A stretch of 64,000 nt of DNA from Companilactobacillus tucceti DSM 20183 (GTDB lineage Bacteria; Bacillota; Bacilli; Lactobacillales; Lactobacillaceae). Of this stretch, positions 34,600 through 59,464 are shown piece after piece (within the stretch, counting starts at the first letter, position 1; every line of letters begins with the position of its first letter). The stretch is taken from NCBI RefSeq assembly GCF_001434665.1, contig NZ_AZDG01000007.1:1-64000 (forward strand), in the 5' to 3' direction. Below the pieces are notes generated by a model that made no database searches, was not told the origin of the DNA, and saw only the letters and a list, made by a program, of their open reading frames with translations. The translations under genes and the position numbers were made by a program.

Positions 34600-34760
34600 A
34601 GGAGCAAGAAAACCATGTTGCTATGGGGACCTATTCGAGCCAGGGTCTCGAATTTCGGTTTTGAACTTTGAGAAAACCACTCAAATTTCAGAACTCGTCT
34701 CGTGGTGTAAGTGCTAAAGCACTAACGCCACCTGCATAGCAACCTAGTTTTCTTGCTCCT
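34600..34760 (+). repeat. class D structured element, copy D1
   Basis: The long outer stem runs AGGAGCAAGAAAAC / GTTTTCTTGCTCCT, then TTGCTATG / CATAGCAA. Inside are three hairpins: ATTCGAG-CCAGGGT-CTCGAAT; GTTTTGAA..TTTGAG / CTCAAA..TTTCAGAAC; and GTGGTGT..AGTGC-TAAA-GCACT..ACGCCAC. The conserved single strands are GACC, CCARGGT, TCG and GTAAG. The flanks are GTCCGTCTTC and TCCGACT. Confidence 0.82.
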
Positions 34761-34809
34761 TCCGACTGAATATCAGTATTTAGTGTTTAGTATAGATATC
34801 TTAGTCGGA

Positions 34810-34979
34810 GGTTGAAAGTGAGAAGAGTCAACAGTGATTGTGGTGTTAGTACGAGTGGTTTTCTCGTGCTTACAGCACAGGACGTATTTTGAAATTCGCG
34901 TACTTTGCGAAGTTCAAAATCGAGTTCGGAGACCTTGGCTCCGGACGATCCCACTGTAGACTCATTCTCATTTTTAACC
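34810..34979 (-). repeat. class D structured element, copy D2, inverted relative to D1
   Basis: On the minus strand: outer stem GGTTAAAAATGAG / CTCACTTTCAACC, first hairpin CGGAG-CCAAGGT-CTCCG, then CTCGATTTTGAACTTCGC / GCGAATTTCAAAAT, ACGTCC, and the third hairpin starting GTGCTGTAAG. The loop CCAAGGT, the CTCG joint and ACGTCC are identical to other copies. Confidence 0.82.
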
Positions 34980-35056
34980 GGAGACGGCCAAAGACTAACT
35001 TGCTGAAGATATTGTATTTGATATACTTTAACCACGATTGAACAAGGGGAGAATAT

Positions 35057-35542
35057 ATGGATAAAGTAGAAAAAATACCTAAAGAGATTAAGACTATTTG
35101 GCGAATAAATGCGATCTTTGATTTCTTAATTTTTTTGATTGTTATTTTGGGAATGGCTTTAATTAAGATGATTTTTCCAGGGATAAATAAAGATTTTATA
35201 ATAATCAGTCAAGTTGTCGTATCGATATTGGCGGTCATTGTAATAGTTTCCGAACTAGTCTTAATTCCTTATCGTTGGAATTTTTGGACTTATTATATTG
35301 ATGAACGACAAGTTGAATTACATAAAGGGTATTTTTTTAGGAAGCAAATTGTGATTCCAATCGCTAGGGTGCAAAATGTTACCTTAAAACAAGGTCCTAT
35401 TTTGAGGATCAAGGATCTACAAAAGGTTATAGTTGTTACGGCTGCTGGAAAAAGTGAGATTGAGGGTATCGAATCTACCCAAGCTGAACAGTTGAAGGAA
35501 GTAATTATGAAACTGGCGCAGGAGGCTAAAAATGATATCTAA
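35057..35542 (+). CDS. YdbS-like bacterial PH-domain (bPH2) membrane protein
   Basis: A 161-aa protein with two N-terminal helices (about 20-42, 50-70) and one bPH2 domain beginning YRWNFWTYYIDERQVELHKGYFFRKQIVIPIARVQNVTL. YdbS and YdbT occur as a pair in Firmicutes; in Bacillus they are linked to resistance against some antimicrobial peptides. It overlaps the start of the YdbT-like gene by 11 bases. AAGGGGAG precedes the ATG. Confidence 0.85.
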   Translation: MDKVEKIPKEIKTIWRINAIFDFLIFLIVILGMALIKMIFPGINKDFIIISQVVVSILAVIVIVSELVLIPYRWNFWTYYIDERQVELHKGYFFRKQIVIPIARVQNVTLKQGPILRIKDLQKVIVVTAAGKSEIEGIESTQAEQLKEVIMKLAQEAKNDI

Positions 35543-36962
35543 ACCACGTCGATTACATCCAGCAGCAATTCTTTTTTACCTATATAAAGAGATCAAGTCG
35601 CTAGCTTTGCCTATTGTCATTGCTTTAGTTGCCATCTTTCGTGGATCCTTATTAAAGATGGTTCTGGGAATAGGTGTTACTTTAATTTTGATTGTAGGAT
35701 ATTGTTTGCTTAAATATTTTACTTTTAGTTATCAGCTGTTGGACCATGAAATTTTGGTAAAAAGTGGAGTATTTGTTAAAAAGGTTAACCACGTTCCGTA
35801 TGATAGAATCCAAAACATAACTTCTAATCAGTGGTTTTTTCTAAAACCATTCGGTCTTGAAGAACTAGAAATAGAAACAGCAGGACATTCGGAAGGTCCA
35901 GAGGTAAGTTTATCGGCGGTTTCTGTGGAACTAAAGAACGAACTAAATAATTATCGTCAACAAGTTGATACGGAAATAAAATCTAAAAATGTTTCACGGG
36001 AAACTTTTTCTGGGGAATAATATTCTATAACATGGAAAGAATTATTGAAGTTTGCCCTAACATCTCCTGCATTTTTATCAGGTTTATTAGTGATTCTGGC
36101 AGCATATGGCAAAATTCAAAATGTCGTCAATAAACAGGTATATAAGTTTGCGGAAGCTGAAATGCAACATTTAGGTATTTTAATTATAATTGCTGGATTT
36201 ATTTTCGTATTGTTACTGTTTTATATTATTTCTGTTTTGTCATTGATTGCTAAGTATTATCATTTCAACTTGGTTAAAAATAATAATAAATTTCAAATGG
36301 AATATGGATTTTTTAAGACTAAGAAGACAACAATATCTATGAATCGTGTTCAAGCTGTTGTTGTAAAACAAACTCTTTTACGAAGATTATTAAATATAGC
36401 TTCTGTTAAGTTGGTTATAATTTCTAATTCTAAAAAAGAAGATACCGAAAAAGATATTATAGTTATGCCAGTAATTGAAAAGGCTAATTTAGAATCATTT
36501 TTGGGTAAGTTTTTTCCCAGTATTCCAATTAGTAATCTTGAAGTTAAAAAGGCATCGTCGAAAACTTTTTATTATGATTTACGTAATGCAATTATTATTA
36601 GTGTTTTAGTAGATGTTGTTTTAGGAATAATGGCTTACAGAATAACATGGTTGTTGGCAGTCATTATTTTATTATCTGGACTTATTTTTGTAGGACCGGC
36701 ATATTTAAAGGCTAGAAGGTCTGGGCTAGCAATAATGGATAAACATTTCTTATACTTGCAAAATAACCAATTCTTCTCTAAAAATACTTATTTTATTCCT
36801 AGAGAGAGTATTCAATTAATAGAAAGACGTCAAAGTGTATGGCTAGCAAAAAAGTCATTTGCGCATCTACGACTTAATTGTCGATCTGGTAATGGGGAAC
36901 GAATTATTGCGGTTAAGTATTTACCTGAAGAATTAATTGATGAGGTTGTTGATTGGTATTGA
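35532..36962 (+). pseudogene. YdbT-like PH-domain membrane protein, interrupted by an in-frame TAA
   Basis: The frame is continuous over 476 codons apart from TAA at 36018-36020 (codon 163). The first part holds two helices and a bPH2 domain (YQLLDHEILVKSGVFVKKVNHVPYDRIQNI); the second holds more helices, a second bPH2 domain (FQMEYGFFKTKKTTISMNRVQAVVVKQTLLRR) and a third (FIPRESIQLIERRQSVW). Full YdbT proteins have about 490 aa with three such domains, so one gene has been split. TAA probably replaced a Gln, Glu or Lys codon between ETFSGE and YSITWKELL. The second part has no good start signal. Confidence 0.85.
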
Positions 36963-36977
36963 GATTTTTTATGTGTG

Positions 36978-37099
36978 GCGTAAACGTGCAATGATACACA
37001 GCTTTTTCCGCTTAAGACAAAAGACCCTATCAATCCGATTTTGGATTGATAGGGTCTTTTGCATTAATGCTCGAAAGCTGAACGTGTATCATTGCACTC
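36978..37099 (-). repeat. class A nested palindromic element, copy A7
   Basis: On the minus strand GAGTG opens 1 base after the metY stop. Arms GCAATGATACAC and GTGTATCATTGC pair perfectly; inner boxes CAGCTTTCGAGCATTAA and TTAAGCGGAAAAAGCTG enclose the hairpin ACCCTATCAATCC/GGATTGATAGGGT. The end is CACGTTTACGCC. It separates metY from the convergent ydbT remnant. Confidence 0.87.
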
Positions 37100-37100
37100 T

Positions 37101-38384
37101 CTAATCACTAACTTTATCCAATCCCTGCTTAAGATCGGCAATTAAATCGTCAGCATTTTCAATACCGATCGAAATTCTGATTAAATCGGGCGTGATACCT
37201 GTAGCTAATAGTTCTTTTTCATTTAATTGTGCATGGGTCGTTGAAGCGGGATGAATGATCAATGACTTAGCGTCACCAACATTTGCTAGCAATGAGAAGA
37301 TATTTAGGTTTGAAATTAATTCTTTACCTGCTTTTTCACCACCAGTTAAACCAATTGTAAAGATTGATCCGACACCTTTAGGGAAATCTCTTTTGGCCAG
37401 TTTGTAATAAGGGCTGTCTTCTTGTTCTGGATATTTTATCCAAGCGACTTTAGGCGAATCTTGAAGGAATTTAATGATTTTACGAGTATTAGTAACGTGT
37501 CTCTCAATTCTTAGTGACAATGTTTCTAGACCCTCGATCAAAAGAAATGAGTTGAATGGACTGATAGCACCACCGACATCACGCAATACTTCTGAACGAA
37601 CTTTTGTTGTAAAAGCACCGCCATTTAAATCAGCGAAAACCAAACCATTGTATTGGGGATTTGGTGTTGTAAATTCTGGATATCGATCTGATTTACGGTA
37701 ATCGAATTTGCCATTTTCTACGATAACGCCGCCCATGCTAGTACCGTGACCTCCAATAAATTTAGTGGCTGATTCTACGACGATATCGGCACCCAAATCA
37801 AGTGGTTTATATAGATAAGGTGAGGCAAATGTATTATCAACGATCAATAACAAACCATTTTTGTGAGCAATTTCAGCGATAGCAGGAACATCGGATAGGT
37901 TGATGTCAGGATTACCAATACTCTCTAGGTAAAGTGCTTTTGTATGTTCGTTAATTTCTTTTTCAAAATTTTTGGGATCATCTGAATTAACGAAATGTGT
38001 TTTAATACCTAATTTGGGCAATGTGACGTTGAATAAATTGTAAGTTCCACCATAAAGGGTACTTGCGGAAACAATTTCATCGCCAGCCTTGGCAATGTTT
38101 TCAATAGTTGCTGAAATAGCCGCCGCACCAGTTGCTAGTGCTACACCAGATGTCCCATCTTCTAGTTGAGCAACTCTTTTCTCAAGTACATCAGTTGTAG
38201 GGTTAGTCAAACGGGTATAAATATTACCGGGGTCTTTTAAGGCAAAACGGTCAGCTGCTTGTTTAGGGTCTTTAAAAACGTATGAAGTTGTTTGATAAAT
38301 AGGAACAGCACGAGCTCCGGTTTCGTCTACAGTTTGTCCAGCATGTACTTGTAATGTTTCAAATTTATATTCTTGTTCACTCAT
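37101..38384 (-). CDS. metY: O-acetylhomoserine aminocarboxypropyltransferase (sulfhydrylase)
   Basis: A 427-aa PLP enzyme of the Cys/Met metabolism family. Seen: [26 protein letters not shown], the PLP-lysine motif [15 protein letters not shown], and the C-terminal [10 protein letters not shown]. It makes homocysteine from O-acetylhomoserine and sulfide, the last sulfur step before methionine. GGAGG precedes ATG 38384. Expression is probably controlled by the T-box upstream and perhaps by a 32-codon leader gene between the T-box and metY. Confidence 0.93.
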
Positions 38385-38428
38385 AATTATGATTCCTCCA
38401 AAATTTTAATAAATTCATGTTTAATTGA

Positions 38429-38527
38429 TTAGTTGTGTTGGATGATTCTTCTGTCAAAGCCGCCTAGTCGCAACTGCGGCATTCGAAAATCCCTCTTAAA
38501 TGAAAATCGTCTAAAATCGTTTGACAT
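38429..38527 (-). CDS. 32-aa leader ORF between the T-box and metY
   Basis: ATG 38527 follows GGAGGTGATTTTA, one of the best ribosome binding sites in the window. The product is Arg- and Phe-rich (MSNDFRRFSFKRDFRMPQ, then LRLGGFDRRIIQHN) with no membrane segment. It lies after the T-box terminator, so it is transcribed only on read-through, and ends 45 bases before metY. I do not recognise it; a regulatory leader peptide or a small basic protein are both possible. Confidence 0.6.
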   Translation of the reverse strand: MSNDFRRFSFKRDFRMPQLRLGGFDRRIIQHN

Positions 38528-38555
38528 TAAAATCACCTCCATAAATTAAAAAAAT

Positions 38556-38820
38556 GTATAAAAAAAGTCCCCATGCTGACTAATGTCAACATGGGGACGA
38601 TGTGGTCGTGGTACCACCCCAAATTCGTAGATAAAATCTACCTCAACAACTCACTAAGTAAGTTCGGGATGATATCGCATCCTTGCGTACCGTTGGCTTT
38701 CACCTAGGTAAGACTCCAAGCTCATCTTCAATCAAGTGTTCGTTCCGCCTTTTCACTATCCAGCGGTCACTATTCAAAACTAATAATTGATCTACTCTTC
38801 TCTTCAACGTCTAAATTAAA
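38556..38820 (-). promoter_or_regulatory. T-box riboswitch, probably tRNA-Met specific
   Basis: Reading on the minus strand, the T-box sequence GGGGTGGTACCACGACC (38604-38620) is followed by the terminator GTCCCCATG...CATGGGGAC with T7 (38561-38598). Upstream lies stem I with AGAAGAGTAG and a distal loop near 38760. The likely specifier loop GAAGATGAGC near 38725 presents ATG, the methionine codon, which fits the metY gene it controls. Uncharged tRNA-Met would favour the antiterminator. Confidence 0.88.
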
Positions 38821-38886
38821 TTTTCTTTAATGAAATTAGTGATTAGTATAGTCGTTGAAATTTAAAAGTCAAGCTTGTTTTTATAA

Positions 38887-39831
38887 TTAATATTCACCCT
38901 CGGCAATCTTATCCAAGGTATCTTTTGAAGGAATGAAGAATAAATTACCTGTTATTGGGGTACTAAAGTCAAGTAAACGGTCGCTTTTAGTAAACATATT
39001 TGTAAGCATACGGTTAGTGACAGCAAAGTCTTTTGAGTAACCAATAAAGTATGTACCAGTTAAGTTCTTTGCGGGGTCGGAGAATGGAACATTCATTCTA
39101 ACGATTTTATGTTCAACACCGCCGTCTTCATCTTTAGCGGCAATGTTGTGGGCATTAGGTAGTTTTTCGTCATCATCAAGTTCTCTATCTGAGAATTTAT
39201 GACGGCCAATAGCTTTTTCTTGATCCTCTGTTTTTAGATCATTCCAAGCATCCATATTATGAGAGTATTTTTGAGCAAATGCATATGATCCATTAACAAA
39301 TTCTGGATCTTGCTTTTCGTCGATCAAAGTATAATCCATTGATTCAACTCCGGCGGGATTTTCAGTTCCGTCGATGAATCCAACAATAGAGCGACCTTCA
39401 AAATAACGGAAACCATGTGTTTCATCTTCGACAGTTGTTATTGGGCGTAAGATACCCATAAATTGATCAATGATTTCGTAACAAACTGACATCTTAGAAG
39501 CACGTACGTGAATAAACAAATCACCAGGTGTAGAAACTGCAGTATATTTTGGACCTTTGATTTCTTTGAAATTTTCGAGTTCTTTAGGCTTTGGTGAATT
39601 AGGGAATAAGTAATCCCAAGCATTTGAACCAAATCCCCAAGCTACATGAACTTGGGCTTCAGGGTCACGAATACGCATGCTATTTATGATTGAGTTGGAC
39701 ATATCAGAAAATTCAGCAATAGCATCTTTTTCTTCACTTTGGTTCTCATGTTTTAACATTAATGTTGTGAAAATAACACTTTCACCTGCATCCTTATAAA
39801 CGTCTTGAGCTTTTTTAATATCAATAGTCAT
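38887..39831 (-). CDS. Dyp-type heme peroxidase
   Basis: A 314-aa dye-decolorising peroxidase with two ferredoxin-like halves. The family signature VGFIDGTENPAG (catalytic Asp) is near residue 150, and the proximal heme His is probably in EHKIVRMNVP. The C-terminus TYFIGYSKDFAVTNRMLTNMF is typical. It removes peroxide using organic donors in the cytoplasm; there is no Tat signal or encapsulin gene nearby. Confidence 0.9.
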   Translation of the reverse strand: MTIDIKKAQDVYKDAGESVIFTTLMLKHENQSEEKDAIAEFSDMSNSIINSMRIRDPEAQVHVAWGFGSNAWDYLFPNSPKPKELENFKEIKGPKYTAVSTPGDLFIHVRASKMSVCYEIIDQFMGILRPITTVEDETHGFRYFEGRSIVGFIDGTENPAGVESMDYTLIDEKQDPEFVNGSYAFAQKYSHNMDAWNDLKTEDQEKAIGRHKFSDRELDDDEKLPNAHNIAAKDEDGGVEHKIVRMNVPFSDPAKNLTGTYFIGYSKDFAVTNRMLTNMFTKSDRLLDFSTPITGNLFFIPSKDTLDKIAEGEY

Positions 39832-39994
39832 CTGCTTACCTCCGAGGCTTATTTAAACAAATCATAACATAAGGAATCGGTACAAAATTATTTAAAAAAT
39901 GTAAATTTAAATTGTTGATTTTGTATCTAATTTAGGATAATAATTAAACGTTGAATAAATTAATTAATAATTGAACCAAAAGGGAGTAGTAGCA

Positions 39995-40981
39995 ATGTGC
40001 ACAAGTATAAGTTATGAGGCTTTAGATGGAGCTAAGTTTTTATCAAGAACAATGGACTTTGCATTTGAATTGAACGGCAGACCAACTTTCTTGCCTAGAG
40101 ATTATGAATGGATATCTTCTTTTGATAAAAAAACATATAAAGCTGATTATGCCATTTTAGGTACTGGGGCAAAGTATGGTAACAACTATATGGTAGCCGA
40201 CGGTACTAATGAGTACGGATTGGCAGCAGCTGAATTGTATTTTGCTCATAAAGCTGAATATGATCATGAACCAACAGATGGAGCTATCAATTTGGTATCA
40301 GAAGAATTTATTTTGTGGGCTTTAGGCAATAATAAATCACTTGCCGAATTGAAAGATAATATTAAAAACGTGCATATTATTGAATCCGATAAGGGTGTTA
40401 TGGGTAAGAATCAACCACTACATTGGATATTTAGTGATTTAACAGGAGCAACATATGTCATTGAACCTGAAGGTGATGGCTTGATCCTTCAAGAAGATAA
40501 AACAGGTGTTATGACTAATACTCCAGATTATCAATGGCATGAAACAAATTTGGCCAATTATTTAGGTGCACAGCCAAATAATTTTGGAAGTAAAAAATTT
40601 GGTGATTTAGAAGTTCAACCATTAGGTCAAAACGGAACATTTCGTTTACCGGGTGGTTATACAGCTGTTGATCGTTTTGTTAGAACTGCCTTTAATCGTG
40701 AAGTAATTGAAAAAGCAGCCGACGCTACTGAAGCTGTTAACACTATCATGCATATTTTAGATAGTGTAGATGTTCCAAAGGGTGCAAATACTAAGCCAGA
40801 TGGCCCAAGTTATACTCAATATCAGTCTATATTTGATATGACAAATAGAATCATGTATTACATACCTTATGGAAATAGAACTGTCTTTAAAGTAAGAATG
40901 ACTGATGAAATGATTGGTGCACAAAAGACTCCTAAAGAATTTCCTGTTGCATTGACACAAGAGTTTAATGAGTTGAATTAG
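39995..40981 (+). CDS. choloylglycine hydrolase / penicillin V acylase family enzyme
   Basis: A 328-aa N-terminal-nucleophile hydrolase. I start at ATG 39995 because it puts the nucleophile Cys at position 2 (MCTSISYEALDG), as the family requires, with AAGGGAG upstream. Arg18 and Asp21 (SRTMDFAFEL), the NNYMVADGTNEYGL segment and a late Arg (FVRTAFNREVI) match the active-site set. Bile salt hydrolase, penicillin V acylase and N-acyl homoserine lactone acylase cannot be told apart by eye. Confidence 0.87.
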   Translation: MCTSISYEALDGAKFLSRTMDFAFELNGRPTFLPRDYEWISSFDKKTYKADYAILGTGAKYGNNYMVADGTNEYGLAAAELYFAHKAEYDHEPTDGAINLVSEEFILWALGNNKSLAELKDNIKNVHIIESDKGVMGKNQPLHWIFSDLTGATYVIEPEGDGLILQEDKTGVMTNTPDYQWHETNLANYLGAQPNNFGSKKFGDLEVQPLGQNGTFRLPGGYTAVDRFVRTAFNREVIEKAADATEAVNTIMHILDSVDVPKGANTKPDGPSYTQYQSIFDMTNRIMYYIPYGNRTVFKVRMTDEMIGAQKTPKEFPVALTQEFNELN

Positions 40982-41004
40982 ATCGGGGGAATTGCCGCCT
41001 CCAG

Positions 41005-41164
41005 AATCAAGAAAATCATGTCGCTATGGGGACCGATTTGAGCCAAAGTACGGTCTCAAATCTCGATTTTGAACCTTGCAAAATACGCAAGTTTCAAAAT
41101 TCGTCCCGTGGTGTAAGCACTAAAGTGCTAACGCCACTTTTATAGCGACATGATTTTCTTGATT
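41005..41164 (+). repeat. class D structured element, copy D3
   Basis: The outer stem AATCAAGAAAATCATG / CATGATTTTCTTGATT continues as TCGCTAT / ATAGCGA without a mismatch. Hairpins: ATTTGAG-loop-CTCAAAT (loop CCAAAGTACGGT), ATTTTGAA.CTTGC / GCAAG.TTCAAAAT, and GTGGTGT.AGCAC-TAAA-GTGCT.ACGCCAC. Base changes against D1 are compensated in all four stems. Flanks TTGCCGCCTCC and TCCGGC. Confidence 0.85.
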
Positions 41165-41288
41165 TTTCCGGCTAGTTTATCTGTTTATTTTTGAATGAAG
41201 AATTATAGTAAATATAAAATAATTGTCGATTCCCAACTATATATATGTATTAGTTGGGGCTTTTTTATTTTGATGAAAATTAGCTGGA

Positions 41289-41446
41289 GGTTATGAGTAA
41301 TGGAACCAGTTGTGCCAGTGGAGTTGAATGGTGGTTTTCCATTCTTACTCCACAGACATATTGAAGATTTGCGTAGCAAAGCTTCAATATGAGACTCAAG
41401 ACCGAGGCTTGAGTCGGTCTCACAACAGGTGGAATTACTCATAACC
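41289..41446 (-). repeat. class D structured element, copy D4, inverted relative to D3
   Basis: On the minus strand: outer stem GGTTATGAGTAAT / ATTACTCATAACC, first hairpin ACTCAAG-CCTCGGT-CTTGAGT, second ATATTGAAGCTTTGC / GCAAATCTTCAATAT, and a third beginning GTGGAGTAAG with arms GAATGG/CCATTC. Flank GCCGCTTAC and TCCAGCTA. Confidence 0.83.
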
Positions 41447-41534
41447 GTAAGCGGCAAGTAAACAACCATTTGGTATGTAATCCATCTTTAAAATGAGATA
41501 TAATAAAAGTGACTGATAACTACCTTATATAAAA

Positions 41535-41548
41535 TTGGTACGTTCCAA
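41535..41548. promoter_or_regulatory. GntR operator at the gntR gene
   Basis: TTGGTACGTTCCAA is a palindrome of the form TTGGnACGTnCCAA just before the ribosome binding site of the GntR gene. The same form recurs before xfp at 42305. Confidence 0.65.
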
Positions 41549-41558
41549 AGGAGGAAAC

Positions 41559-42284: not shown

Positions 42285-42304
42285 TTAAAAGGTAGTTATT
42301 TTTA

Positions 42305-42318
42305 TTGGGACGTACCAA
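42305..42318. promoter_or_regulatory. GntR operator before xfp
   Basis: TTGGGACGTACCAA matches the TTGGnACGTnCCAA palindrome at 41535 and lies 73 bases before the xfp start, next to a TTGACT...TATGTATAT promoter candidate. Confidence 0.65.
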
Positions 42319-42390
42319 TTAGTTAAATGGTTGACTTAAAATTAAATACTGGTTATTATGTATATGTAAAAACCTAAGGAGTGTGCCGTA

Positions 42391-44748: not shown

Positions 44749-44868
44749 AGTGTAATCAAATATGCTCAGCTTTCGAGCATTAAGGTAAATAGCCCTCAGT
44801 AATCCAAAGGATTGCTGAGGGCTATTTATATTAAGCGCAAAAAGTTATGTTTGATTACACGTTTAAGC
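44748..44868 (+). repeat. class A nested palindromic element, copy A8
   Basis: GAGTG begins on the last base of the xfp stop (TAG). The outer arms GTAATCAAATAT and ATGTTTGATTAC pair (one G-U), inner boxes are CAGCTTTCGAGCATTAA and TTAAGCGCAAAAAGTT, and the hairpin is ATAGCCCTCAGTAATCC/GGATTGCTGAGGGCTAT. The end is ACACGTTTAAGC. Confidence 0.86.
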
Positions 44869-44945: not shown

Positions 44946-45069
44946 ATAGCCTAAACGTGCAAAAAAAGACTGCAACCTCCACATAGCTACGAACCACAAA
45001 TGATTGATAGTGCCAATCATTCGTGGTCCTAGGCTATGTTCCGGTGGCAAACCGTCTTTTGTTACACTC
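44946..45069 (-). repeat. class C nested palindromic element, copy C3
   Basis: Minus-strand orientation: GAGTGTAACAAAAGAC opens, GTCTTTTTTTGCACGTTTAGGC closes the element, and the interior CATAGCCTAGG..CACGAATGATTGG stem matches C1. Unlike the other copies it does not follow a gene on its strand; it lies between two right halves of A8. Confidence 0.75.
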
Positions 45070-45079
45070 TTGCTATTTA

Positions 45080-45828: not shown

Positions 45829-47883
45829 ATGAAAAACTTTCAGGGGAATGGGAAAAGATGGATTCTATTTTCGACTTTAACATTAGCTGGCGGATTGATT
45901 TTAACAACTAATTCAACAACTACTATTAAAGCCGATAATATTCCAGTTAATGCGGGTACTGCTGAAACGGAGACAGGTAACGAGGATACAACTCCAACTA
46001 CTAATGCCACTACACCGGCCAATGATCCTACTAATGATAATCAAGTAAATTATACAATTAATTATGTAGATTCCACCTCCAGTAATGTTTTGCAAAGTAC
46101 TACGGGAACAGCAGATGGAGGTTCTTCAATCACTATACCAACGGCTACGATAGCAGGTTATCAGCAAAACACCAGTAGTCAGTATCAGTTAGCATCAGTC
46201 ACAACAGATGCCGATAAGAAGCAGGATATATCTGTACCAATGACTAAACTTACTGGCGCAACATTGCGTGTTAAGGAGAATGAGAGTGACGGTAATTCTT
46301 TAAATAGAATTCCAGTTGGATCTTTAGAAGTTAACGATAGTAATTACAAAAACGACGTACAAACTGAATTGAGTACAATGCAAAAGGGACGCAAGGTTGA
46401 TTTTGCCAATTCAACTTACGGGTACAGTTCCTTAAATACGCTGGACTATCTTAAAGGGATGGAAAATTCTTCTCCAGCAGATATTGTTATAAAGGTGTTG
46501 GAAAATGAAGGATCAAGTGACGTTTTAAATGAAAGCTTATCTGGAAAAGAGTTAGATTTTGGCTTTCAATATTTACCAATTGATGAAAACTACGAAGTTC
46601 ATTATGTTGCCGTGGGGGGACCACAAGATGGCAAGGTAATTTATATTGATAAGGGTCAAAATGATAATGGGGTATTACCAAGTACACCTCATCATAGAGG
46701 AATACCAGCTTCTGATGCTGTTCCAGGTTACAAGGTGTCAAGTTTTGACGAAAATGATATATCTTTTGATGAAGAAGCTGGTGTCTTGACTTTTAAGGTG
46801 CCAATTGAACCTGGTATCTTAATTACTATCAATGAGTATGATAAAAATAAAAAATTAGTAAAAACCGTAAATTGGGATATAATATCTAACGATAAAATTG
46901 CGATTCAACCAGATAGTACTAGTAATCCAATATTTCCTTCTGGAAAAATAAGAAATACTGATATTTCTGGTGTATTGAGTGATTCATTTTATAAAGATTT
47001 AATAATGGACAAAAATCTAATTATTGCTGATTCTAACTTCGACGATATACATGGAGATAGTCCAGAAGTTAGCGATTCTGCGGCACAAGTAATGGGACTA
47101 TATAATCAGTTATATGGTTTAGATACTAAAAACTCAAATATGGGTTATATAACTAAGTTCATCATGAATGCCCTGTTTCCAAACGGATCAGTTGGTGAAA
47201 ATTGGTCAGGAAATGTAATTACAATTAATGCATATTTGGATTTCGTGGATCAGAGTACTTCGACAAGTATTCCTGTAACACCATCTGATGTAATAAATAA
47301 AGTAAACAATATTGCAACTACGACTAAGAAAGTCAATTTATATGATAATAAGGGCAATTTAATTACTAATAGAGCATTAGATATTAATACTGCTTGGCAA
47401 AGTGACCAAGAATTTACTTATAATGGTCAAAAGTATTATCGAGTTTCACCTGATGAATATGTCAAAGCAGGGGATGTTTATTTATATAAAGATACCGATA
47501 CGAGTTTGGTTAGAATTTTTAGTGATGGTAGTGGTAGTATAGTGGACTATTTGGGATCTGAAGTCTCTAGAAAACTTGACCCTGCAACTGATTGGAAAAC
47601 AGATCGAATTGCATTGATAAATGGTAATGAGTATTATCGAGTTTCAACTAATGAATTTATAAAATTAGATACGGTTCAACCTTATGAAAATGATTTTGAA
47701 AATTTGGTTACGTCTAACTTAACTAATACTTATGATGAACATGGAAAAGAACTCACTCTGAAACTGCCTAATAATACAGGATATAAAACTGATCGAATCG
47801 TCACTATCAATGGCATTAAGTATTATCGTGTCTCAACTGATACTTTTGTAAAGGTTGATGATATACAAAAAATGACAAAATAA
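45829..47883 (+). CDS. secreted surface protein with MucBP-like and SLAP-like repeats
   Basis: A 684-aa exported protein. Residues 1-36 form a signal peptide (KRWILFSTLTLAGGLILTT), followed by a Thr/Asn-rich linker to about 70 and a MucBP-like segment (INYVDSTSSNVLQSTTG). The last 190 residues carry three repeats of about 60 aa, each with a turn DNKGN/DGSGS/DEHGK and an ending YYRVS(P/T)(D/N)E(Y/F)(V/I)K; these look like SLAP domains that bind teichoic or lipoteichoic acid non-covalently. There is no LPXTG anchor, which agrees. The middle (about 140-500) is unknown. Adhesion or cell-wall attachment is the likely role. Confidence 0.75.
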   Translation: MKNFQGNGKRWILFSTLTLAGGLILTTNSTTTIKADNIPVNAGTAETETGNEDTTPTTNATTPANDPTNDNQVNYTINYVDSTSSNVLQSTTGTADGGSSITIPTATIAGYQQNTSSQYQLASVTTDADKKQDISVPMTKLTGATLRVKENESDGNSLNRIPVGSLEVNDSNYKNDVQTELSTMQKGRKVDFANSTYGYSSLNTLDYLKGMENSSPADIVIKVLENEGSSDVLNESLSGKELDFGFQYLPIDENYEVHYVAVGGPQDGKVIYIDKGQNDNGVLPSTPHHRGIPASDAVPGYKVSSFDENDISFDEEAGVLTFKVPIEPGILITINEYDKNKKLVKTVNWDIISNDKIAIQPDSTSNPIFPSGKIRNTDISGVLSDSFYKDLIMDKNLIIADSNFDDIHGDSPEVSDSAAQVMGLYNQLYGLDTKNSNMGYITKFIMNALFPNGSVGENWSGNVITINAYLDFVDQSTSTSIPVTPSDVINKVNNIATTTKKVNLYDNKGNLITNRALDINTAWQSDQEFTYNGQKYYRVSPDEYVKAGDVYLYKDTDTSLVRIFSDGSGSIVDYLGSEVSRKLDPATDWKTDRIALINGNEYYRVSTNEFIKLDTVQPYENDFENLVTSNLTNTYDEHGKELTLKLPNNTGYKTDRIVTINGIKYYRVSTDTFVKVDDIQKMTK

Positions 47884-50102: not shown

Positions 50103-50182
50103 TATTATTTATTGAATAAAACTCATTAATGCATTAATCTTACATTAAAGAGTTTTCATTAAGAGCATTGGAGGATCAGATT

Positions 50183-50656: not shown

Positions 50657-50673
50657 TAATCCATAAAGTAGGA

Positions 50674-50714
50674 GAAAAAAGACTGAGATGAGTCATATCC
50701 CAGCCTTTTTTTAT
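50674..50714 (+). terminator. terminator after usp
   Basis: AAAAAAGACTGAGATG pairs imperfectly with CATATCCCAGCCTTTTTTT around a short loop. It lies just before the tag start codon. Confidence 0.65.
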
Positions 50715-50724
50715 TGGTGAAGAA

Positions 50725-51270: not shown

Positions 51271-51316
51271 TCAGACTTATTAAGTATAATAGGGACGTAA
51301 TAACGGAGGAAAATTT

Positions 51317-51805: not shown

Positions 51806-51808
51806 ATT

Positions 51809-52633: not shown

Positions 52634-53273
52634 GTTTTTAATGGATAACTTTTTTAAATTAGTATTTAGAGATTATCTATATTTATCGATGTTATTTATG
52701 ATGGTGATTTTTAAGTTTACAATTGCTCCAATTTTGGGATTATCTGGATCACAAAATGTCGAATTGTTGATTGTTTTAACTTTTTTTATGGGATTAATCA
52801 ACGGTTTGAATTTCTTTAAAAATAATCAGTTGTATAATCGGTATGTAAAACAAAAAGTTGGTAATTATTGGCTGTATATATCAGTTCAAACAGTTATATT
52901 ATTGCTGACGAATATTTTGACAGCAGTTTTGACATTCATCAATACTGCTGATTTGTTATTGATTATATTATTTACAACATCAGGCTTTGTTGGCACAACA
53001 ATGGCTATGCTTTTAAAACCACGTTTTGAAAAACATCCCATTGTAGGACAGATTAGTATGTTTATTTTGATATATTTATCTTTAGCTGACAGCTCTAGTG
53101 GCGTTCTTTATTATATAAACTGGATTTTGCCACCTATTTCTAAAATGATAGTAACCTTGCAAGATGGTCATTCAATACAAGCATTACTACCGGTTGCTGG
53201 ACAGCAATTTGTCTACGGAATTATTTTATTTGCTATTAGTGGTGTCTTTTATCAAAAAAAATTTGAAAAATGA
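52623..53273 (+). CDS. ABC transporter membrane protein (unassigned family)
   Basis: A 216-aa protein with six predicted hydrophobic helices beginning FFKLVFRDYLYLSMLFMMVIF. I place the start at TTG 52623, after GAGGGGGC and within the end of the ATPase gene; ATG 52641 is an alternative. Its size, helix count and partner ATPase suggest a small ABC-2-like permease; sequence resemblance is weak. Confidence 0.65.
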   Translation: MKIKFLMDNFFKLVFRDYLYLSMLFMMVIFKFTIAPILGLSGSQNVELLIVLTFFMGLINGLNFFKNNQLYNRYVKQKVGNYWLYISVQTVILLLTNILTAVLTFINTADLLLIILFTTSGFVGTTMAMLLKPRFEKHPIVGQISMFILIYLSLADSSSGVLYYINWILPPISKMIVTLQDGHSIQALLPVAGQQFVYGIILFAISGVFYQKKFEK

Positions 53274-53338
53274 GATAAAAGTATTGCTATTTACCATCAA
53301 CTTCTGCTTTAATTGCCTGATGAACAAGGAGGCCTATA

Positions 53339-53863
53339 ATGAGCAATATTTATTTACGTCGTGCGAGACAAGACGATTTGCCAAAAGTTATAGAAATTAT
53401 TGAGGGTGCTAAGAAAACCTTACGCGACCGTGGTGTCGATCAGTGGCAACGTGGTTATCCCAATGATGCCATCTTAAAACAGGACCTTGAAGAAGGTATT
53501 AATTATGTTTTATTGTTGGATGGTGAAGTTGTGGGAACTGCTGCTCTCCAACAAGGCTATGATAAAAACTATCAAGAAATAACTAACGGTAAATGGGATG
53601 GCGATTCAGATGTAACTTATTCGATCATCCACAGAATTGCAGTAGAGCCAGGTCATCAGGGCCAACACTTATCTGCTGCATTGATCCAACAACTTATGAC
53701 AATGTCTTATAGCTTGGGATATGAGGACGTTAGAATCGACACCCATCCAGATAATCTAGTTATGCAACACGTTATCAAAGCAAATGGATTTGTTGAAAAA
53801 GGTATTATTACTATGGACGAAGATAAAGGTGACAGAAAAGCCTATCAAATCTTACTAAAATAA
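53339..53863 (+). CDS. GNAT-family N-acetyltransferase
   Basis: A 174-aa acetyltransferase. The acetyl-CoA motif is IHRIAVEPGHQGQHLSAALIQQLM (about 98-121), followed by DTHPDNLVMQHVIKANGF. AAGGAGG precedes the ATG. Substrate unknown. Confidence 0.88.
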   Translation: MSNIYLRRARQDDLPKVIEIIEGAKKTLRDRGVDQWQRGYPNDAILKQDLEEGINYVLLLDGEVVGTAALQQGYDKNYQEITNGKWDGDSDVTYSIIHRIAVEPGHQGQHLSAALIQQLMTMSYSLGYEDVRIDTHPDNLVMQHVIKANGFVEKGIITMDEDKGDRKAYQILLK

Positions 53864-53882
53864 CAGTTAAATTGTATTGAAT

Positions 53883-53910
53883 AAGCCATCGAGATAGATG
53901 GTTTTTTTGG
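53883..53910 (+). terminator. terminator after the GNAT gene
   Basis: AGCCATC-GAGATA-GATGGTT followed by T5. Confidence 0.75.
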
Positions 53911-53961
53911 TTATTTTCACTTAAACAATGTTAGTATTGGAAGTATTGGGAGAACAGAAAA

Positions 53962-55131
53962 TTGAATATTAAAAATTTTGCTAAAAAGGTTTTGAATCCA
54001 AAACCATCTGAATTTATCTCAACACAAACTGATAATTTTCTAAGAAGGTTGAAACCAAGACCTTTTGCGGTTGATTATATAAATAACGTTTATAAAAATA
54101 ATGTGAAACCTCATATAACTGACAATACAATGACTCTTTCTGTCTTGACAGATACTCATGCTAAAGCCATTGCTAGTGCCTCTTATTATGGGATCAATGG
54201 TGTTCGTCACATAATTGAAAGCAATGTTGTTAGTGATGAAGCTGGAATTGATTTAAATGTTCATTTAGGTGACTTAATTGATGGCAGTGATAAGCCGGAA
54301 ATAAGCCGTGGTTTGTTGCGCTTTGCTGTGGAGAATTATAAAGACAGCAAGTCACCATTTTTCATTGTGGAAGGCAATCACGATGAAAATGACAAGTATG
54401 ATGAACATCGTTTTATCAGTTCAGCTTCTTTTAGACGTGATGACTATGATAGTTTAGTGACTAAATATGATTTTGAACAATCAAAGATATTTAGATTGAA
54501 TCCCGTTTCCCAAGTGGGCTGGTTTGATAAAGGTGACATTCGAGTTATCTTTATAAATACTAGTGATATTCCTTACATCTTAAACAATGGTTCTAAGAAA
54601 TATGACTTTAAAAAAGTCCGTGGTGTAAGAGAACAACAATTAGAAGATTTAATCGCTGTTTTGGAAAATACCGTTGATAAACATGTGGTTGTCATGGGTC
54701 ATGCTAATATTGTTAGTCCTAGTGGCAGAAGTTCTTTGAATTTCAATGGTGATTTGATTCAGCAACTTTTTGTAGCTTTCAATAATAAAGATCGTGGCCA
54801 ATTGAAGAATCAGCTCACAGGTGATTTTGGCGTTAACTTAAGATACGATTTTTCATCAACAGGAATATCTAAAGTAACGACTTATATTTGTGGTCACATG
54901 CATTACGAAAAATATTATAAAGTTACAGGAATTAATCATATAATATTGAACTGCTCTGCTTTGATGGGGAAGAAACATGGTTTAACAACAGATTATAATA
55001 AAAAATGGGATCGAAGATATAATGAAATATCAGAATTATCAGGGTATTTCATTAATATTGATCCAGATAAATTGCAACTACAAATATTTGGTTATGGAGC
55101 AGCAACTAGATATGTAAGTTTTGAGATATAG
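53962..55131 (+). CDS. metallophosphoesterase
   Basis: A 389-aa calcineurin-like phosphoesterase with the motif series TDTHAKAI, HLGDLIDGSD, VEGNHDENDKYDEHR, VMGHANI and CGHMHYEKYY, which supplies two metal sites. No signal peptide or membrane helix is seen. Initiation is at TTG 53962 after GGGAGAAC. It lies 10 bases before the asparagine synthase gene, so it may share an operon with the cross-bridge genes; its substrate is unknown. Confidence 0.85.
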   Translation: MNIKNFAKKVLNPKPSEFISTQTDNFLRRLKPRPFAVDYINNVYKNNVKPHITDNTMTLSVLTDTHAKAIASASYYGINGVRHIIESNVVSDEAGIDLNVHLGDLIDGSDKPEISRGLLRFAVENYKDSKSPFFIVEGNHDENDKYDEHRFISSASFRRDDYDSLVTKYDFEQSKIFRLNPVSQVGWFDKGDIRVIFINTSDIPYILNNGSKKYDFKKVRGVREQQLEDLIAVLENTVDKHVVVMGHANIVSPSGRSSLNFNGDLIQQLFVAFNNKDRGQLKNQLTGDFGVNLRYDFSSTGISKVTTYICGHMHYEKYYKVTGINHIILNCSALMGKKHGLTTDYNKKWDRRYNEISELSGYFINIDPDKLQLQIFGYGAATRYVSFEI

Positions 55132-55141
55132 GAGAAATAAT

Positions 55142-57040
55142 ATGTGTGGAATTGTCGGATTTGTAGATAAGGAAATAGCCGAGAAAAAGCCGGTGATCGA
55201 GTCTATGATGGATGCAATCAAGCATCGTGGTCCTAACAGTTCAGGAGAACTGGTAAACGGCAACGTTGCACTAGGCTTTCGTCGTCTTAGTATTATTGAT
55301 ATTAAGAGTGGTATGCAACCTATTTATAATGAAGATAATAGTAAAGCTATCGTTTTCAATGGAGAAATTTATAACTACCGTTCAATTAGAGAAGAATTGA
55401 AAAAAGATGGCCATATTTTTAAAACAAATACAGACACAGAAGTATTGCTCCATGGATTTGAAGAGTGGGGAATCGTTGAGTTACTAAAGAAGATTCGCGG
55501 TATGTTTGCCTTTGTTATTTATGATTTAGAAACAGGAGACATAACAGGCGCCAGAGATTTCTTTGGTATAAAACCCATTTATTATTACAATCGACAAGGA
55601 ACGTTTATTTTTGGCTCCGAAATAAAATCCTTTTTGAAACATCCTAATTTTAAAAAAGAGCTGAATAAGTCAGCTTTAAAGCCATATTTGACTTTCCAAT
55701 ATTCAGCTCTAAATGAGACCTTTTTCAAGAATGTTTTTCGTATTCCTGAAGGCCATTACTTTACTTATAAGTCAGGAAAATTAAGTATTAAAAAGTATTG
55801 GGATATTCATTTTAAAGAAAATCAATTGAGCTTTGAAGAAACGGTCAATAAGATCAATGAGTCTATTAATGAATCAGTAAAAGCACATTCCATTAGTGAT
55901 GTTCCAGTCGGTTCACTATTATCGAGTGGTATAGATTCAAGTTATATAACAGCTATCTTGAAGCCTGAACATACATATTCTATTGATTTTGATACTGATA
56001 CTTATGAAGAGGGCAGTGCCGCAAAAGACTTAGCCGATAACCTCGGTTTAAAGAATACTCGTGGGATCGTTACTAAAGATGAAGCTATTAAAGCCATGCC
56101 ACTGATTCAATATTATATGGATGAACCAGATGCTAATCCATCTTGTGTGCCACTATATTTCTTAACTAAACTTGCTAGTAAAGATGTAACAGTTATTCTT
56201 TCGGGTGAAGGTGCAGATGAATTGTTCGCCGGTTATGCAAACTATGGTGATCACTCTAAGTCAAAAATTATTCGAGCCTTTGCTGAAGAGTTGAAGAAGT
56301 TACCAAAATCAACAAAGTATAAATTAGCTCATGGCCTAAATAAAGTACCTAATTTTCCAGGCCGCTTACACTTATACGAATCAACTGCTAAAGCCGAAGA
56401 ATTTTTCATCGGTGAAGCCAAAGTTTTCAGTGAAGATGAAGCTTCTGAAATAATTCAATCTGATTTTGAGAAAGCTCGTACTGTAAAAGATATTGTTATG
56501 AGAAGTTATCGTAAAGTAGCTGATTATGATGATGAAGTTAAAAAGATGCAGTATTTAGACATACATCAATTTATGTCAAATGATATCTTGTTGAAGGCAG
56601 ATAAAATGAGTATGGCTAATTCAATGGAATTAAGAGTTCCATTCTTGGATAAAAAAGTTGCAGAAGTAGCATCAGGAATTCCTACTAAATATCTTTTAAA
56701 CCGTAAAGATAGTAAATATGCACTAAGAGTCGCTGCCCAAAAAGTTTTGCCTGATCAATGGGCTAAACGCAAAAAGTTGGGATTCCCAGTTCCTATCAGA
56801 GACTGGATTCATTCTGAAGATGTTTATAAAGAATTTAGAGATCTATTCAGTGAAAGCTTCGTTACAGAATTCTTTGATCAAGATAAAATCTTAGAAATGC
56901 TTGATGGATTTTATAATGGTAAAAATGATGACCGTCGTAAAATTTGGACGGTTTACACATTCTTGATTTGGTACAAGGTATTCTTTATTAATAATGGAAC
57001 TAAGCCTGATGTTGATCCTCAAGTTAAATTAGTAAATTAA
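55142..57040 (+). CDS. asparagine synthase (AsnB/AsnH type), probably amidates the D-Asp cross-bridge
   Basis: A 632-aa two-domain amidotransferase. Cys2 (MCGIVGF) is the glutaminase nucleophile; KHRGPNSSGE and FNGEIYNYR follow, and the synthetase domain has PVGSLLSSGIDSSY (about 255-268) and ILSGEGADELFAGY. AGGAG lies before ATG 55142. It is followed by a D-aspartate ligase gene. In Lactococcus, AsnH of this family amidates the D-Asp of the peptidoglycan cross-bridge, so that is the favoured role over free asparagine synthesis. Specificity is inferred from neighbours. Confidence 0.87.
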   Translation: MCGIVGFVDKEIAEKKPVIESMMDAIKHRGPNSSGELVNGNVALGFRRLSIIDIKSGMQPIYNEDNSKAIVFNGEIYNYRSIREELKKDGHIFKTNTDTEVLLHGFEEWGIVELLKKIRGMFAFVIYDLETGDITGARDFFGIKPIYYYNRQGTFIFGSEIKSFLKHPNFKKELNKSALKPYLTFQYSALNETFFKNVFRIPEGHYFTYKSGKLSIKKYWDIHFKENQLSFEETVNKINESINESVKAHSISDVPVGSLLSSGIDSSYITAILKPEHTYSIDFDTDTYEEGSAAKDLADNLGLKNTRGIVTKDEAIKAMPLIQYYMDEPDANPSCVPLYFLTKLASKDVTVILSGEGADELFAGYANYGDHSKSKIIRAFAEELKKLPKSTKYKLAHGLNKVPNFPGRLHLYESTAKAEEFFIGEAKVFSEDEASEIIQSDFEKARTVKDIVMRSYRKVADYDDEVKKMQYLDIHQFMSNDILLKADKMSMANSMELRVPFLDKKVAEVASGIPTKYLLNRKDSKYALRVAAQKVLPDQWAKRKKLGFPVPIRDWIHSEDVYKEFRDLFSESFVTEFFDQDKILEMLDGFYNGKNDDRRKIWTVYTFLIWYKVFFINNGTKPDVDPQVKLVN

Positions 57041-57044
57041 AATG

Positions 57045-57075
57045 AAAGCGCCCTTATTAATAGGGGCGCTTTTAG
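57045..57075 (+). terminator. terminator between the asparagine synthase and D-Asp ligase genes
   Basis: AAAGCGCCC and GGGGCGCTTTT enclose TTATTAATA. It means the ligase gene has its own promoter (TATAAT-like at 57143). Confidence 0.82.
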
Positions 57076-57203
57076 TGTTCATAATAAAAATATTTAGAAA
57101 ATGATAATTAATTACCGTTTTATCGAAGTGTTGTATTGATATGTTATAATTTTGTTTGAAATGTGTGTAAAATTTATAAATATGAATTAATAAAAGTAAG
57201 AGG

Positions 57204-58487
57204 TTGATCCTTATCGAAACTAAATCAGGAAAGAAATTCACTCCTATATTATTAGGTAGTGACATGAATGTTTATGGTATGGCGCGTGCCTTTCATGACG
57301 TTTATGGTGGTGGTGCAGTTCAAGCATATGCCAGTGCACAATTAGCTCCTACTCGTTATACTAAAATTGTTAATGTAAATATTCATCCAGGATTTTCTGA
57401 AGATCCCGTATTTATTGAAAGAATGCGTGAAATTGCTAAAATTTATGAAAATCATGATGAGCCAGTTATATTGATCTCGTGCGGGGATGGATACGCTGAA
57501 CTTATCAGTAAACATAAGGAAGAGTTATCTAAAACTTTTGTATGCCCATATGTCGATTATGACAAATTAAAGGCACTGAATAATAAAGAGAATTTCTATA
57601 AGATTGCCGATGAACATAAGCTACCACATCCAAAAACTAAGATCATTACTAAGAAGATGTATCAAGATAAGGATATGAAGGTGCCATTTGATTACCCAGT
57701 AGCTTTAAAGCCAGCCAATAGTGTGGAGTGGTTGGATATTCATTTTGAGGGACGTAAAAAAGCATTTACTATTCATTCAGATGAAGAATTTAATGAAGTT
57801 GTTGCTAAAATATACGATAATGGATATACATCCGATTTGATTTTGCAGGACTTTATTCCTGGGGATGACTCCAACATGCGTGTGCTAAATGCCTATGTTG
57901 ATCACAACCATCATGTTAAAATGATGTGCTTGGGTCATCCGCTTTTGGAAGATCCAACACCTCAATCAATCGGAAATTATGTAGCAATCGTTCCAGATTT
58001 TAATCAAGATGTTTATGACCAAGTTCAAAAGTTCCTTGAAGATATTGAATATACAGGTTTTGCTAACTTTGATATGAAATATGATTCAAGAGATCAAACA
58101 TTTAAGTTCTTTGAGATCAATTTGAGACAAGGTCGTAGTAGTTACTTTGTTACATTGAATGGATATAATTTAGCTCAATACTTAGTTGAAGATTATGTTG
58201 AAGGTAGTTTAGAAAATGCTCCAACTGTATATGCCAATAAAAATAAGGCACAACATAAACTTTGGTTAGGTGTACCAATCAAGGTTTTCAGAAAATACGC
58301 TGCTGATAATGATGCCAAGCGTTATGCTGAAGAATTGATAAAACAAGAACGCACAGGAACAACGGTCTTTTATGACAAAGATAAGTCATTCAAGCGTTGG
58401 TTGTTACTAACATATATGTTCCATAATTATGTGAAACGTTTTGATGAATATTTTGAAGCAAATAAAGGCCGAGATTTCGAAAAATAG
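57204..58487 (+). CDS. D-aspartate ligase (peptidoglycan cross-bridge)
   Basis: A 427-aa ATP-grasp ligase closely resembling Enterococcus faecium Aslfm, which adds D-Asp to the L-Lys side chain of UDP-MurNAc-pentapeptide. Shared blocks are PILLGSDMNVYGMAR, LAPTRYTKIVNV, CGDGYAELIS, PVALKPANSVE, IPGDDSNMRVLNAYVD, GHPLLEDPTP and FEINLRQGRSS (metal/ATP ligands). So the wall should have L-Lys-D-Asp/D-Asn cross-links. The start is unclear: TTG 57204 abuts the AGAGG site, while ATC 57213 has ideal spacing but is a rare start codon. Confidence 0.9.
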   Translation: MILIETKSGKKFTPILLGSDMNVYGMARAFHDVYGGGAVQAYASAQLAPTRYTKIVNVNIHPGFSEDPVFIERMREIAKIYENHDEPVILISCGDGYAELISKHKEELSKTFVCPYVDYDKLKALNNKENFYKIADEHKLPHPKTKIITKKMYQDKDMKVPFDYPVALKPANSVEWLDIHFEGRKKAFTIHSDEEFNEVVAKIYDNGYTSDLILQDFIPGDDSNMRVLNAYVDHNHHVKMMCLGHPLLEDPTPQSIGNYVAIVPDFNQDVYDQVQKFLEDIEYTGFANFDMKYDSRDQTFKFFEINLRQGRSSYFVTLNGYNLAQYLVEDYVEGSLENAPTVYANKNKAQHKLWLGVPIKVFRKYAADNDAKRYAEELIKQERTGTTVFYDKDKSFKRWLLLTYMFHNYVKRFDEYFEANKGRDFEK

Positions 58488-58500
58488 GAGGCTCATTTAA

Positions 58501-58965
58501 ATGGATGACGTACGTGATTACAAAGTAAAGAAAATTGAATATGAAAAGATTTTGATTTGTGTAGATTCTGATGATTTTTCATCATCTAAGAATGCTTTTA
58601 ATTATGCTTGTTCATTAGCCAAACATTATAATGCTGAACTAGGAATCGTATCAGTATTGGAAATTGGAGATTTAAATATTTTCCAATCACTAGATCCTAG
58701 TATCTTATCTGAACGTCGTAATCAGATTAAAGAATTGCTCGAAACTTACGGTAAAAAAGCTGAAACATTTGGTGTAAAGAATGTTCACTTAATGGTAACA
58801 GAGGGAAGCCCCGGTCAATCTATCGTTGAAAAGGTTATTCCAAAGTTCACTCCTGATTTGGTAATCGTTGGAGTTGAAGAGAAGAACCGTTATCGTAATA
58901 CTATCGGCTCACAAGCAGCTAAAATAGTTAATAATGCTCGTGTTTCAGTTAGTGTTATAAGATAG
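58501..58965 (+). CDS. universal stress protein UspA family
   Basis: A 154-aa Usp-fold protein with ILICVDSDDFSSSKNAFNYAC at the start and VIVGVEEKNRYRNTIGSQAAKIVNNARVSVSVIR at the end; the glycine motif is degenerate. GGAGG precedes the ATG and the D-Asp ligase ends 13 bases before, so the two are cotranscribed. Its TAG stop is followed at once by GAGCGTAAAAG, a remnant of a class A/B/C start box. Confidence 0.86.
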   Translation: MDDVRDYKVKKIEYEKILICVDSDDFSSSKNAFNYACSLAKHYNAELGIVSVLEIGDLNIFQSLDPSILSERRNQIKELLETYGKKAETFGVKNVHLMVTEGSPGQSIVEKVIPKFTPDLVIVGVEEKNRYRNTIGSQAAKIVNNARVSVSVIR

Positions 58966-59016
58966 AGCGTAAAAGTCACCGCTTAGTATTTATTTTGTAT
59001 TTTATATGCCGCTTCC

Positions 59017-59180
59017 GGTTTCAAGTAATTCCATCTGTTGTGTGGACCGTTTTCAGCCAAGGTCTGAAAACTCGCTTTGAAACTTTGCAAAGACCGCAAA
59101 TTTTCAAAGACGTCCGTGGAGTAAGAACGGAAAACCGCCGTTCAAATCCACACTCACAATTGGTTACATTACTTGAAACC
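59017..59180 (+). repeat. class D structured element, copy D5
   Basis: The outer stem is GGTTTCAAGTAAT / ATTACTTGAAACC. Hairpins: GTTTTCAG-CCAAGGT-CTGAAAAC; CTTTGAAA.CTTTGC / GCAAA.TTTTCAAAG; and GTGGAGTAAG with GAACGG / CCGTTC. GACC before hairpin 1 and ACGTCC after hairpin 2 are kept. Flanks GCCGCTTCC and TCCAGCTG. Confidence 0.83.
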
Positions 59181-59306
59181 TCCAGCTGTGTTTGAATTAA
59201 TAAATTTGATATATATTTAATCCTCTATACATTTATTTGTATGGGGGATTTTTCATATTTAGTATTTTACTGATTTAACATTTATCTAAATATGTATAAG
59301 GCCGGA

Positions 59307-59464
59307 GGATAGAAAGGTGTCCGCCAGCTGTTACGGTGGTGTTGGAGCGGTCTTTGCGACTTACACCACGGACGTATTTTGAGATTTGCGTAAGCAAAGC
59401 TCAAAATCGAGGTTCAAGACCTTGGCTTGAACCGGTCCAACAGCAGGCAGATACCTTTCTATCC
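59307..59464 (-). repeat. class D structured element, copy D6, inverted relative to D5
   Basis: On the minus strand: outer stem GGATAGAAAGGT / ACCTTTCTATCC, first hairpin GTTCAAG-CCAAGGT-CTTGAAC, CTCG, second hairpin ATTTTGAG.TTTGC / GCAAA.CTCAAAAT, ACGTCC, and GTGGTGTAAG. Flanks GGCCTAC and TCCGGCC. Confidence 0.84.

Follow-up and report, generated by a model that had tools for sequence, protein, structure and literature searches.

Six D elements in three convergent pairs

The DNA analysed here, referred to as the window, is a 64,000-nt stretch of Companilactobacillus tucceti DSM 20183 (positions 1 to 64,000 of contig NZ_AZDG01000007.1, forward strand). It carries six copies, each 175-187 nt long, of a folded repeat that we call D, and these were recovered by reading, by alignment and with a covariance model. 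We found no description of the family to which D belongs, a large one of folded, non-autonomous DNA elements that are probably mobile. A preliminary description, made from the letters alone, had reported six copies with one architecture; the copies and their core were right, but copies 2, 4 and 6 lie on the opposite strand and the ends are a few bases further out, at a GCC/GGC basal pairing. With filters off, the six copies scored 151.6-178.9 bits (E 1e-34 to 4e-41) against the covariance model R2. They form three convergent pairs, a plus copy followed by a minus copy, with spacers of 33, 106 and 110 nt. The features are listed below, with D3 divided into its parts.

34591-34768, + strand: D1, folded element, first of convergent pair 1 (R2 163 bits; -80.5 kcal/mol folded as RNA)
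34769-34801, no strand: spacer of pair 1, 33 nt
34802-34988, - strand: D2, folded element, inverted, second of pair 1 (R2 157.4 bits)
40994-41174, + strand: D3, folded element, first of pair 2 (R2 178.9 bits)
41005-41027, + strand: 5' arm of the closing stem P1 of D3 (partner 41142-41164; 100% complementary over 23 nt in a repeat search)
41035-41062, + strand: hairpin 1 of D3, read from sequence and fold
41064-41103, + strand: hairpin 2 of D3 including its CG...CG base, read from sequence and fold
41108-41137, + strand: hairpin 3 of D3, GTGGTGTAAG...CTAACGCCAC, read from sequence and fold
41142-41164, + strand: 3' arm of P1 of D3, from the repeat search
41232-41269, + strand: terminator-like hairpin and T-run in the spacer of pair 2, read from sequence
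41281-41455, - strand: D4, folded element, inverted, second of pair 2 (R2 151.6 bits)
59008-59188, + strand: D5, folded element, first of pair 3 (R2 156 bits)
59220-59254, + strand: terminator-like hairpin and T-run in the spacer of pair 3, read from sequence
59299-59473, - strand: D6, folded element, inverted, second of pair 3 (R2 165.6 bits)

All six copies share a fold in which a long stem encloses three hairpins. The closing stem P1 stands on a 3-pair base and has up to 26 pairs. Within it, a short stem P2 (for example GGAC/GTCC, as judged from aligned copies with compensated swaps) carries hairpins 1 and 2, and hairpin 3 completes the structure beside P2. The motifs named in the preliminary description were all found again, namely the loop CCAAGGT or variants of it, the CTCG joint, the ATTTTGAA hairpin, ACGTCC and GTGGTGTAAG, as were the swaps of stem letters with pairing kept that it had quoted.

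Covariation and spread of the family

The fold itself is real. The expectation of a conserved structure with strong covariation was borne out when 13 copies from the C. tucceti genome were compared with 500 shuffles: double-sided changes with pairing kept occurred at 44 of 63 pairs, 93.6% of 816 cells were paired (77.9% in shuffles) and the covariation score was 0.503 (0.194 in shuffles), and for each of these three values none of the 500 shuffles was as high. Further pair types, one of the five measures used, were reached by 20 of the 500 shuffles. The signal was abolished when partner columns were shifted by 1-3, a control that favours the structure, since the structure was derived from the same sequences. 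No Rfam family matched at its gathering threshold anywhere in the window, as had been anticipated, and in three copy-bearing loci the nine Rfam matches with E up to 5 were all sub-threshold and none lay on a D copy. A description of the family was likewise not found in the open literature of PubMed Central, a search that leaves most subscription papers outside its reach.

Further copies in related species, also foreseen, were found with R2, which was used for all genome searches. The C. tucceti genome (2.17 Mb) holds at least 31 D copies, 29 of them full length, among the best 150 of 531 candidates scored; the 41 rows obtained comprise these 31 copies and 10 antisense shadows at the same places. 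A single-contig genome, G002, holds at least 150, as 150 of its 1687 candidates were scored and all 150 matched. A rough extrapolation gives about 300 copies in G002, because only 16 of the 32 copies in four 20-kb stretches were among those 150. Matches were found in 31 of 36 Companilactobacillus genomes, and in 32 of the 60 genomes searched altogether (E up to 1e-4), the additional one lying outside the genus. In a wider draw from the order, for which six candidates per genome were scored, 25 of 395 genomes matched; four belong to the same genus and 13 to five further genera within the family (best E of 7e-29). The remaining eight are weak matches in other families that may be chance hairpins. 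Among 67 of 68 named loci from outside the genus (L123 was left out), six gave D matches, from three Lactiplantibacillus and three Lapidilactobacillus species. The motifs AGCC, CTCG and GGTGTAAG...CTAAC are kept in four of eight copies inspected from other genera (L330, L332, L333 and L334), and these four have 58-64% G+C.

Position and presence of D blocks

The genomic context was examined for 30 of the 31 C. tucceti copies with simple open reading frame (ORF) calling and without a shuffled control. Overlap with a called ORF of at least 80 amino acids (aa) was absent in 27 copies, and mechanical ORFs are overlapped by the other three. Within 130 nt on the 5' side, a gene ends in sense orientation in 18 of 30 copies and a gene starts in 5 of 30; on the 3' side, a terminator-like hairpin lies within 260 nt in 17 of 30. 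At least one D pair, that at L078, is on the start side of a gene, the one for thymidine kinase. D is short, non-coding, multicopy and outside genes, as expected of miniature inverted-repeat transposable elements (MITEs), and the ORFs within one G002 unit do not exceed 79 aa.

Neighbouring copies within 1 kb of each other were arranged plus then minus in all eight cases in the C. tucceti genome and in all six on the G002 list. Two further sets of neighbours, which partly overlap, gave 20 convergent (+-), three tandem (++) and no divergent (-+) arrangements, and 15 of 15 convergent ones. The blocks recur within G002: one whole 683-bp unit was matched at two places and half of it at many, and several pairs whose spacer is 122-184 nt long are alike across both D copies. 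A tail of about 150-170 nt with a terminator-like hairpin is common to some solo copies; in others the shared tail is shorter. Plasmid and phage collections gave no match to one 686-bp unit. Outer inverted repeats were present at both ends of 13 of 74 G002 copies tested, a set enriched for relatives of one locus, and are of two kinds (nine and four copies). A 367-bp D unit at L248 741-1129 (G002:C1:1274140-1274528) is flanked by the 11-bp direct repeat CTAAATAATAA, the only clear target duplication seen. The idea that wide pairs are autonomous long copies was rejected after inspection of the three widest, which enclose a recX gene (L217), no clear gene (L178) and a 157-aa ORF at 1107-1580 of L246, in G002, with a sub-threshold match to DUF6483 (E 0.018).

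Whole blocks are present in one species and absent from another. The site of D3, spacer and D4 holds 16 bases instead in C. baiquanensis, and that of D1, spacer and D2 holds 74 bases in C. kedongensis, so that the whole pair is absent in each. In 36 of 36 genomes no more than about 4 kb separates the genes flanking D5-D6 (Usp and M13 peptidase), and of the 32 relatives read at this site (three of the 35, with gaps of about 4 kb, were left out) 10 have a D match and 22 do not. In a comparison of G002 with the genome G006, whose flanking matches at the compared sites are 80-91% identical, 21 G002 blocks in 80 kb were followed; six were not bracketed, two had a D in opposite orientation in G006 and 13 were scored by script as lacking D. 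Five of these 13 were excluded (L336:7156, L337:17023, L338:10150, L338:11474 and L339:4304), and only four clean empty sites were counted, because the flank matches of the five run into D copies. G006 cleanly lacks these four blocks, of which two are pairs and two solos, and has 0-45 bases left at the sites. Mobility of D is well supported and would account for such absences. Syntenic copies of G002 and G006, matched by position, were each other's nearest relatives in none of six cases, which means either that favoured sites turn over rapidly or that copies convert one another.

Other hairpin repeats accompany D. At three G002 loci another hairpin holds D units between its arms, CAGTAATCC/GGATTGCTG at L249 and L256 and ACTCG.AATC/GATTACGAGT at L255; hairpin repeats thus nest within one another there. 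The window has a second hairpin family, full copies of which read CAGCTTTCGAGCATTAA, hairpin, TTTAAGCGGAAAAAGCTG, with long hairpins inside an outer stem, at 18757-18834, 19781-19851, 26220-26295, 32451-32524, 37007-37072, 44779-44836 and 63113-63190. Its stems differ between copies, their pairing is near perfect, and as hairpins they match R2 weakly. At 32504-32678 and at 63170-63344, two copies each of a 78-nt stretch of this family lie 97 bp apart. A third family (AAAAAAGGCTGCAACCTCCACATAGC...) is found at 19674-19749, 32697-32772 and 44972-45047, two of the three copies being 87% identical over 111 nt. Finally, three 45-nt repeats (47422-47853) lie inside the ORF at 45829-47883.

Mobile DNA, structured RNA or recombining repeats

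Selection on a folded RNA, one of the two causes offered in the preliminary description, was not borne out, as G-U pairs are not favoured over A-C outside hairpin 3. There, 138 distinct copies, many of them from G002, have 7084 Watson-Crick cells, 75 G-U, 171 A-C and 207 other mismatches, whereas a small control of 14 tRNAs gave 20 G-U and no A-C. Alignment with a covariance model would be expected to lean towards G-U, not against it. Furthermore, for four of the six window copies the RNA folding energy is lower for the complement of the modelled strand. The many transversion pairs among the double changes described below, and their occurrence in adjacent blocks, likewise tell against RNA selection. 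The maintenance of the fold looks DNA-based, and single-stranded DNA, the other cause offered, may apply.

How the stems change was followed in pairs of related copies. Double changes numbered 53 and single changes 62 in 22 close reciprocal nearest pairs (of 26); of the singles, 30 gave A-C, 15 G-U and 17 other mismatches, and of the doubles, 24 were of transversion type. Adjacent doubles numbered 14 compared with 5.3 expected, a value reached in none of 1000 permutations. Template switching produces simultaneous complementary changes in both arms of a hairpin, according to PMC8794818, where it is described for RNA genes; in D it is proposed for a mobile repeat, and the double changes, the transversion types and the adjacency fit it. 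At the D5 site, the stem of C. kedongensis is perfect where the window D5 has a basal internal loop, as copying of one arm would give. The best true orthologue is the D5 of C. baiquanensis, with 90% identity, above the other listed copies of that genome; its four double and four single stem changes relative to the window D5 are too few to decide. At the D5-D6 site the window and C. kedongensis differ by 10 double and eight single changes in one copy and by 13 and six in the other (orthology not established), and at the D3 site by double changes at 20 pairs. One syntenic G002/G006 pair, whose nearest-relative status is not established, had 11 double and no single changes, and six more such pairs had 90 double and 24 single changes, with unpaired positions differing about as often as stem positions (85/291 and 218/755). 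These syntenic copies had been taken as orthologues compensated in place, an interpretation that was withdrawn once the syntenic copy proved not to be the nearest relative in six of six cases. Ancestral counting on a tree also gave many double changes, which were set aside because trees are unreliable for recombining copies.

We prefer, with a probability of roughly two in three, to regard D as non-autonomous mobile DNA elements of Lactobacillaceae with a folded core of about 177 nt whose arms are kept complementary at the DNA level. The conserved, branched, foldable core sits mostly just behind stop codons, either alone with a 3' tail or as a convergent block of D, a spacer often with a terminator-like hairpin, and inverted D, such a block being present or absent as a whole. 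An enzyme acting in trans might recognise the folded single strand or a cruciform; this form of recognition is suggested because the loop and joint motifs are common across genera while the stem letters drift. The arms would stay complementary by copying of one arm onto the other, through template switching or hairpin repair, and not through selection for an RNA fold. The fuller proposal, in which one family-wide mobile element is read as a folded single DNA strand and its arms are rewritten by arm-to-arm copying so that stems drift at near-perfect pairing, is tentative and rather doubtful as a whole.

Several observations weigh against the mobile-DNA proposal. The two transposase families searched, Y1 and ISL3, yielded no mobilising enzyme. 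Y1 transposase (PF01797) was rejected for want of a match in the C. tucceti genome, G002 or G006, although a match exists in 18 of the 36 Companilactobacillus genomes; ISL3 transposase (PF01610) has no match in the C. tucceti genome and one in G002, in a 222-aa frame, and 19 of 20 of its loci scanned are without the outer repeats. Gain and loss of the blocks are not polarised on a species tree, and no regular target-site duplication was evident by eye at the other junctions inspected. In hairpin 3 of the same 138 copies G-U does prevail (95 against 9 A-C), much of it at one pair, which is T-G in 32 of 81 copies, and the A-C excess elsewhere could mean that the opposite strand is the selected RNA. 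As to arm copying, the ratio of double to single changes is only 0.45 below 5% stem divergence, which stepwise compensation would give too; conversion from one copy to another could look like blocks of double changes; and compensation in place is unproven because the syntenic copies are not mutual nearest relatives in six of six cases.

Some of this would suit a cis- or trans-acting structured RNA, such as an element of the 3' untranslated region (3' UTR) for stability or termination, or a small RNA, the multicopy state being secondary. The strong covariation, the sense position behind stop codons, which also fits a 3' UTR function, the terminator-like hairpins downstream, counted without shuffled control, the loop motifs conserved across genera and the wobble pairs of hairpin 3 all speak for it; of these, the conserved loops, which would fit a 3' UTR function as well, and the position behind stop codons also count against our proposal. 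We nevertheless consider an RNA unlikely, given the lack of G-U preference elsewhere, an opposite strand that folds as well or better in four of six copies, the pair on the start side of the thymidine kinase gene and the absence of whole blocks in sister species. Somewhat less probable again are ordinary MITEs, that is, insertion sequences with internal deletions that a DDE transposase mobilises via their terminal inverted repeats, the fold being a by-product. Nine of the 74 G002 copies are embedded in a 331-377-bp unit whose outer inverted repeats resemble GGTTCTTTCTTAANTTTGGTTA and which we take to be similar to ISL3-family ends, and one copy has the 11-bp direct repeat; however, 61 of the 74 show neither outer repeat at both ends, the two subtypes differ, of the 20 ISL3 loci only L275 has one end, with three mismatches, ISL3 transposase has no match in the C. 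tucceti genome and only the single frame in G002, and closing stems vary from subfamily to subfamily, which a transposase binding site would not. A third alternative, in which the repeats change through gene conversion or recombination among sites already occupied and through loss, instead of new transposition, is very improbable: the six of six syntenic copies that are closer to other copies and the 20 double changes at the D3 site agree with it, but the clean empty sites require that whole blocks were either gained or precisely lost, and 22 of 32 relatives lack D at the D5-D6 site.

Several known repeat systems resemble D in part. Hairpin-forming repeats of mitochondria, including the double-hairpin elements of fungi, invade intergenic regions and vary in their paired stems like D, and are simpler in fold. 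Integron attC sites are recognised as folded single-stranded DNA and keep their structure while the stems vary; D resembles them in its varying stems and maintained structure and, presumably, in the folded single strand. The BOX, RUP and SPRITE elements of Streptococcus pneumoniae (PMC10969869) are like D short and intergenic, with terminator-like members, and are bunched and inserted into one another; by description, D differs in its three-hairpin core, convergent pairing and drifting stems. The REP and BIME sequences with RAYT (Y1) transposases, as covered by PMC3733652, share with D an intergenic palindromic nature, high copy number and inverted dimers with spacers; REPs are 20-40 bp long, whereas D is a branched element of about 177 nt and has no Y1 match in the three genomes named. 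Bacterial MITEs are non-coding, short and intergenic (PMC10969869), and some D copies have inverted ends; D differs in that no regular direct repeats were seen, no parent insertion sequence appeared in the two families searched, and its subfamilies do not share stem letters.

Covariation is commonly taken as proof of a functional RNA, and D is a strongly covarying family that behaves as mobile DNA, without the wobble preference of RNA outside one hairpin. If arm-to-arm copying is true as well, D would generate covariation at the DNA level and so imitate a conserved RNA. If the mobile-DNA reading is right, it calls for caution in covariation-based RNA discovery, implies that common food bacteria have a mobilising enzyme not yet described, and provides hundreds of natural copies in which template-switch compensation can be measured.

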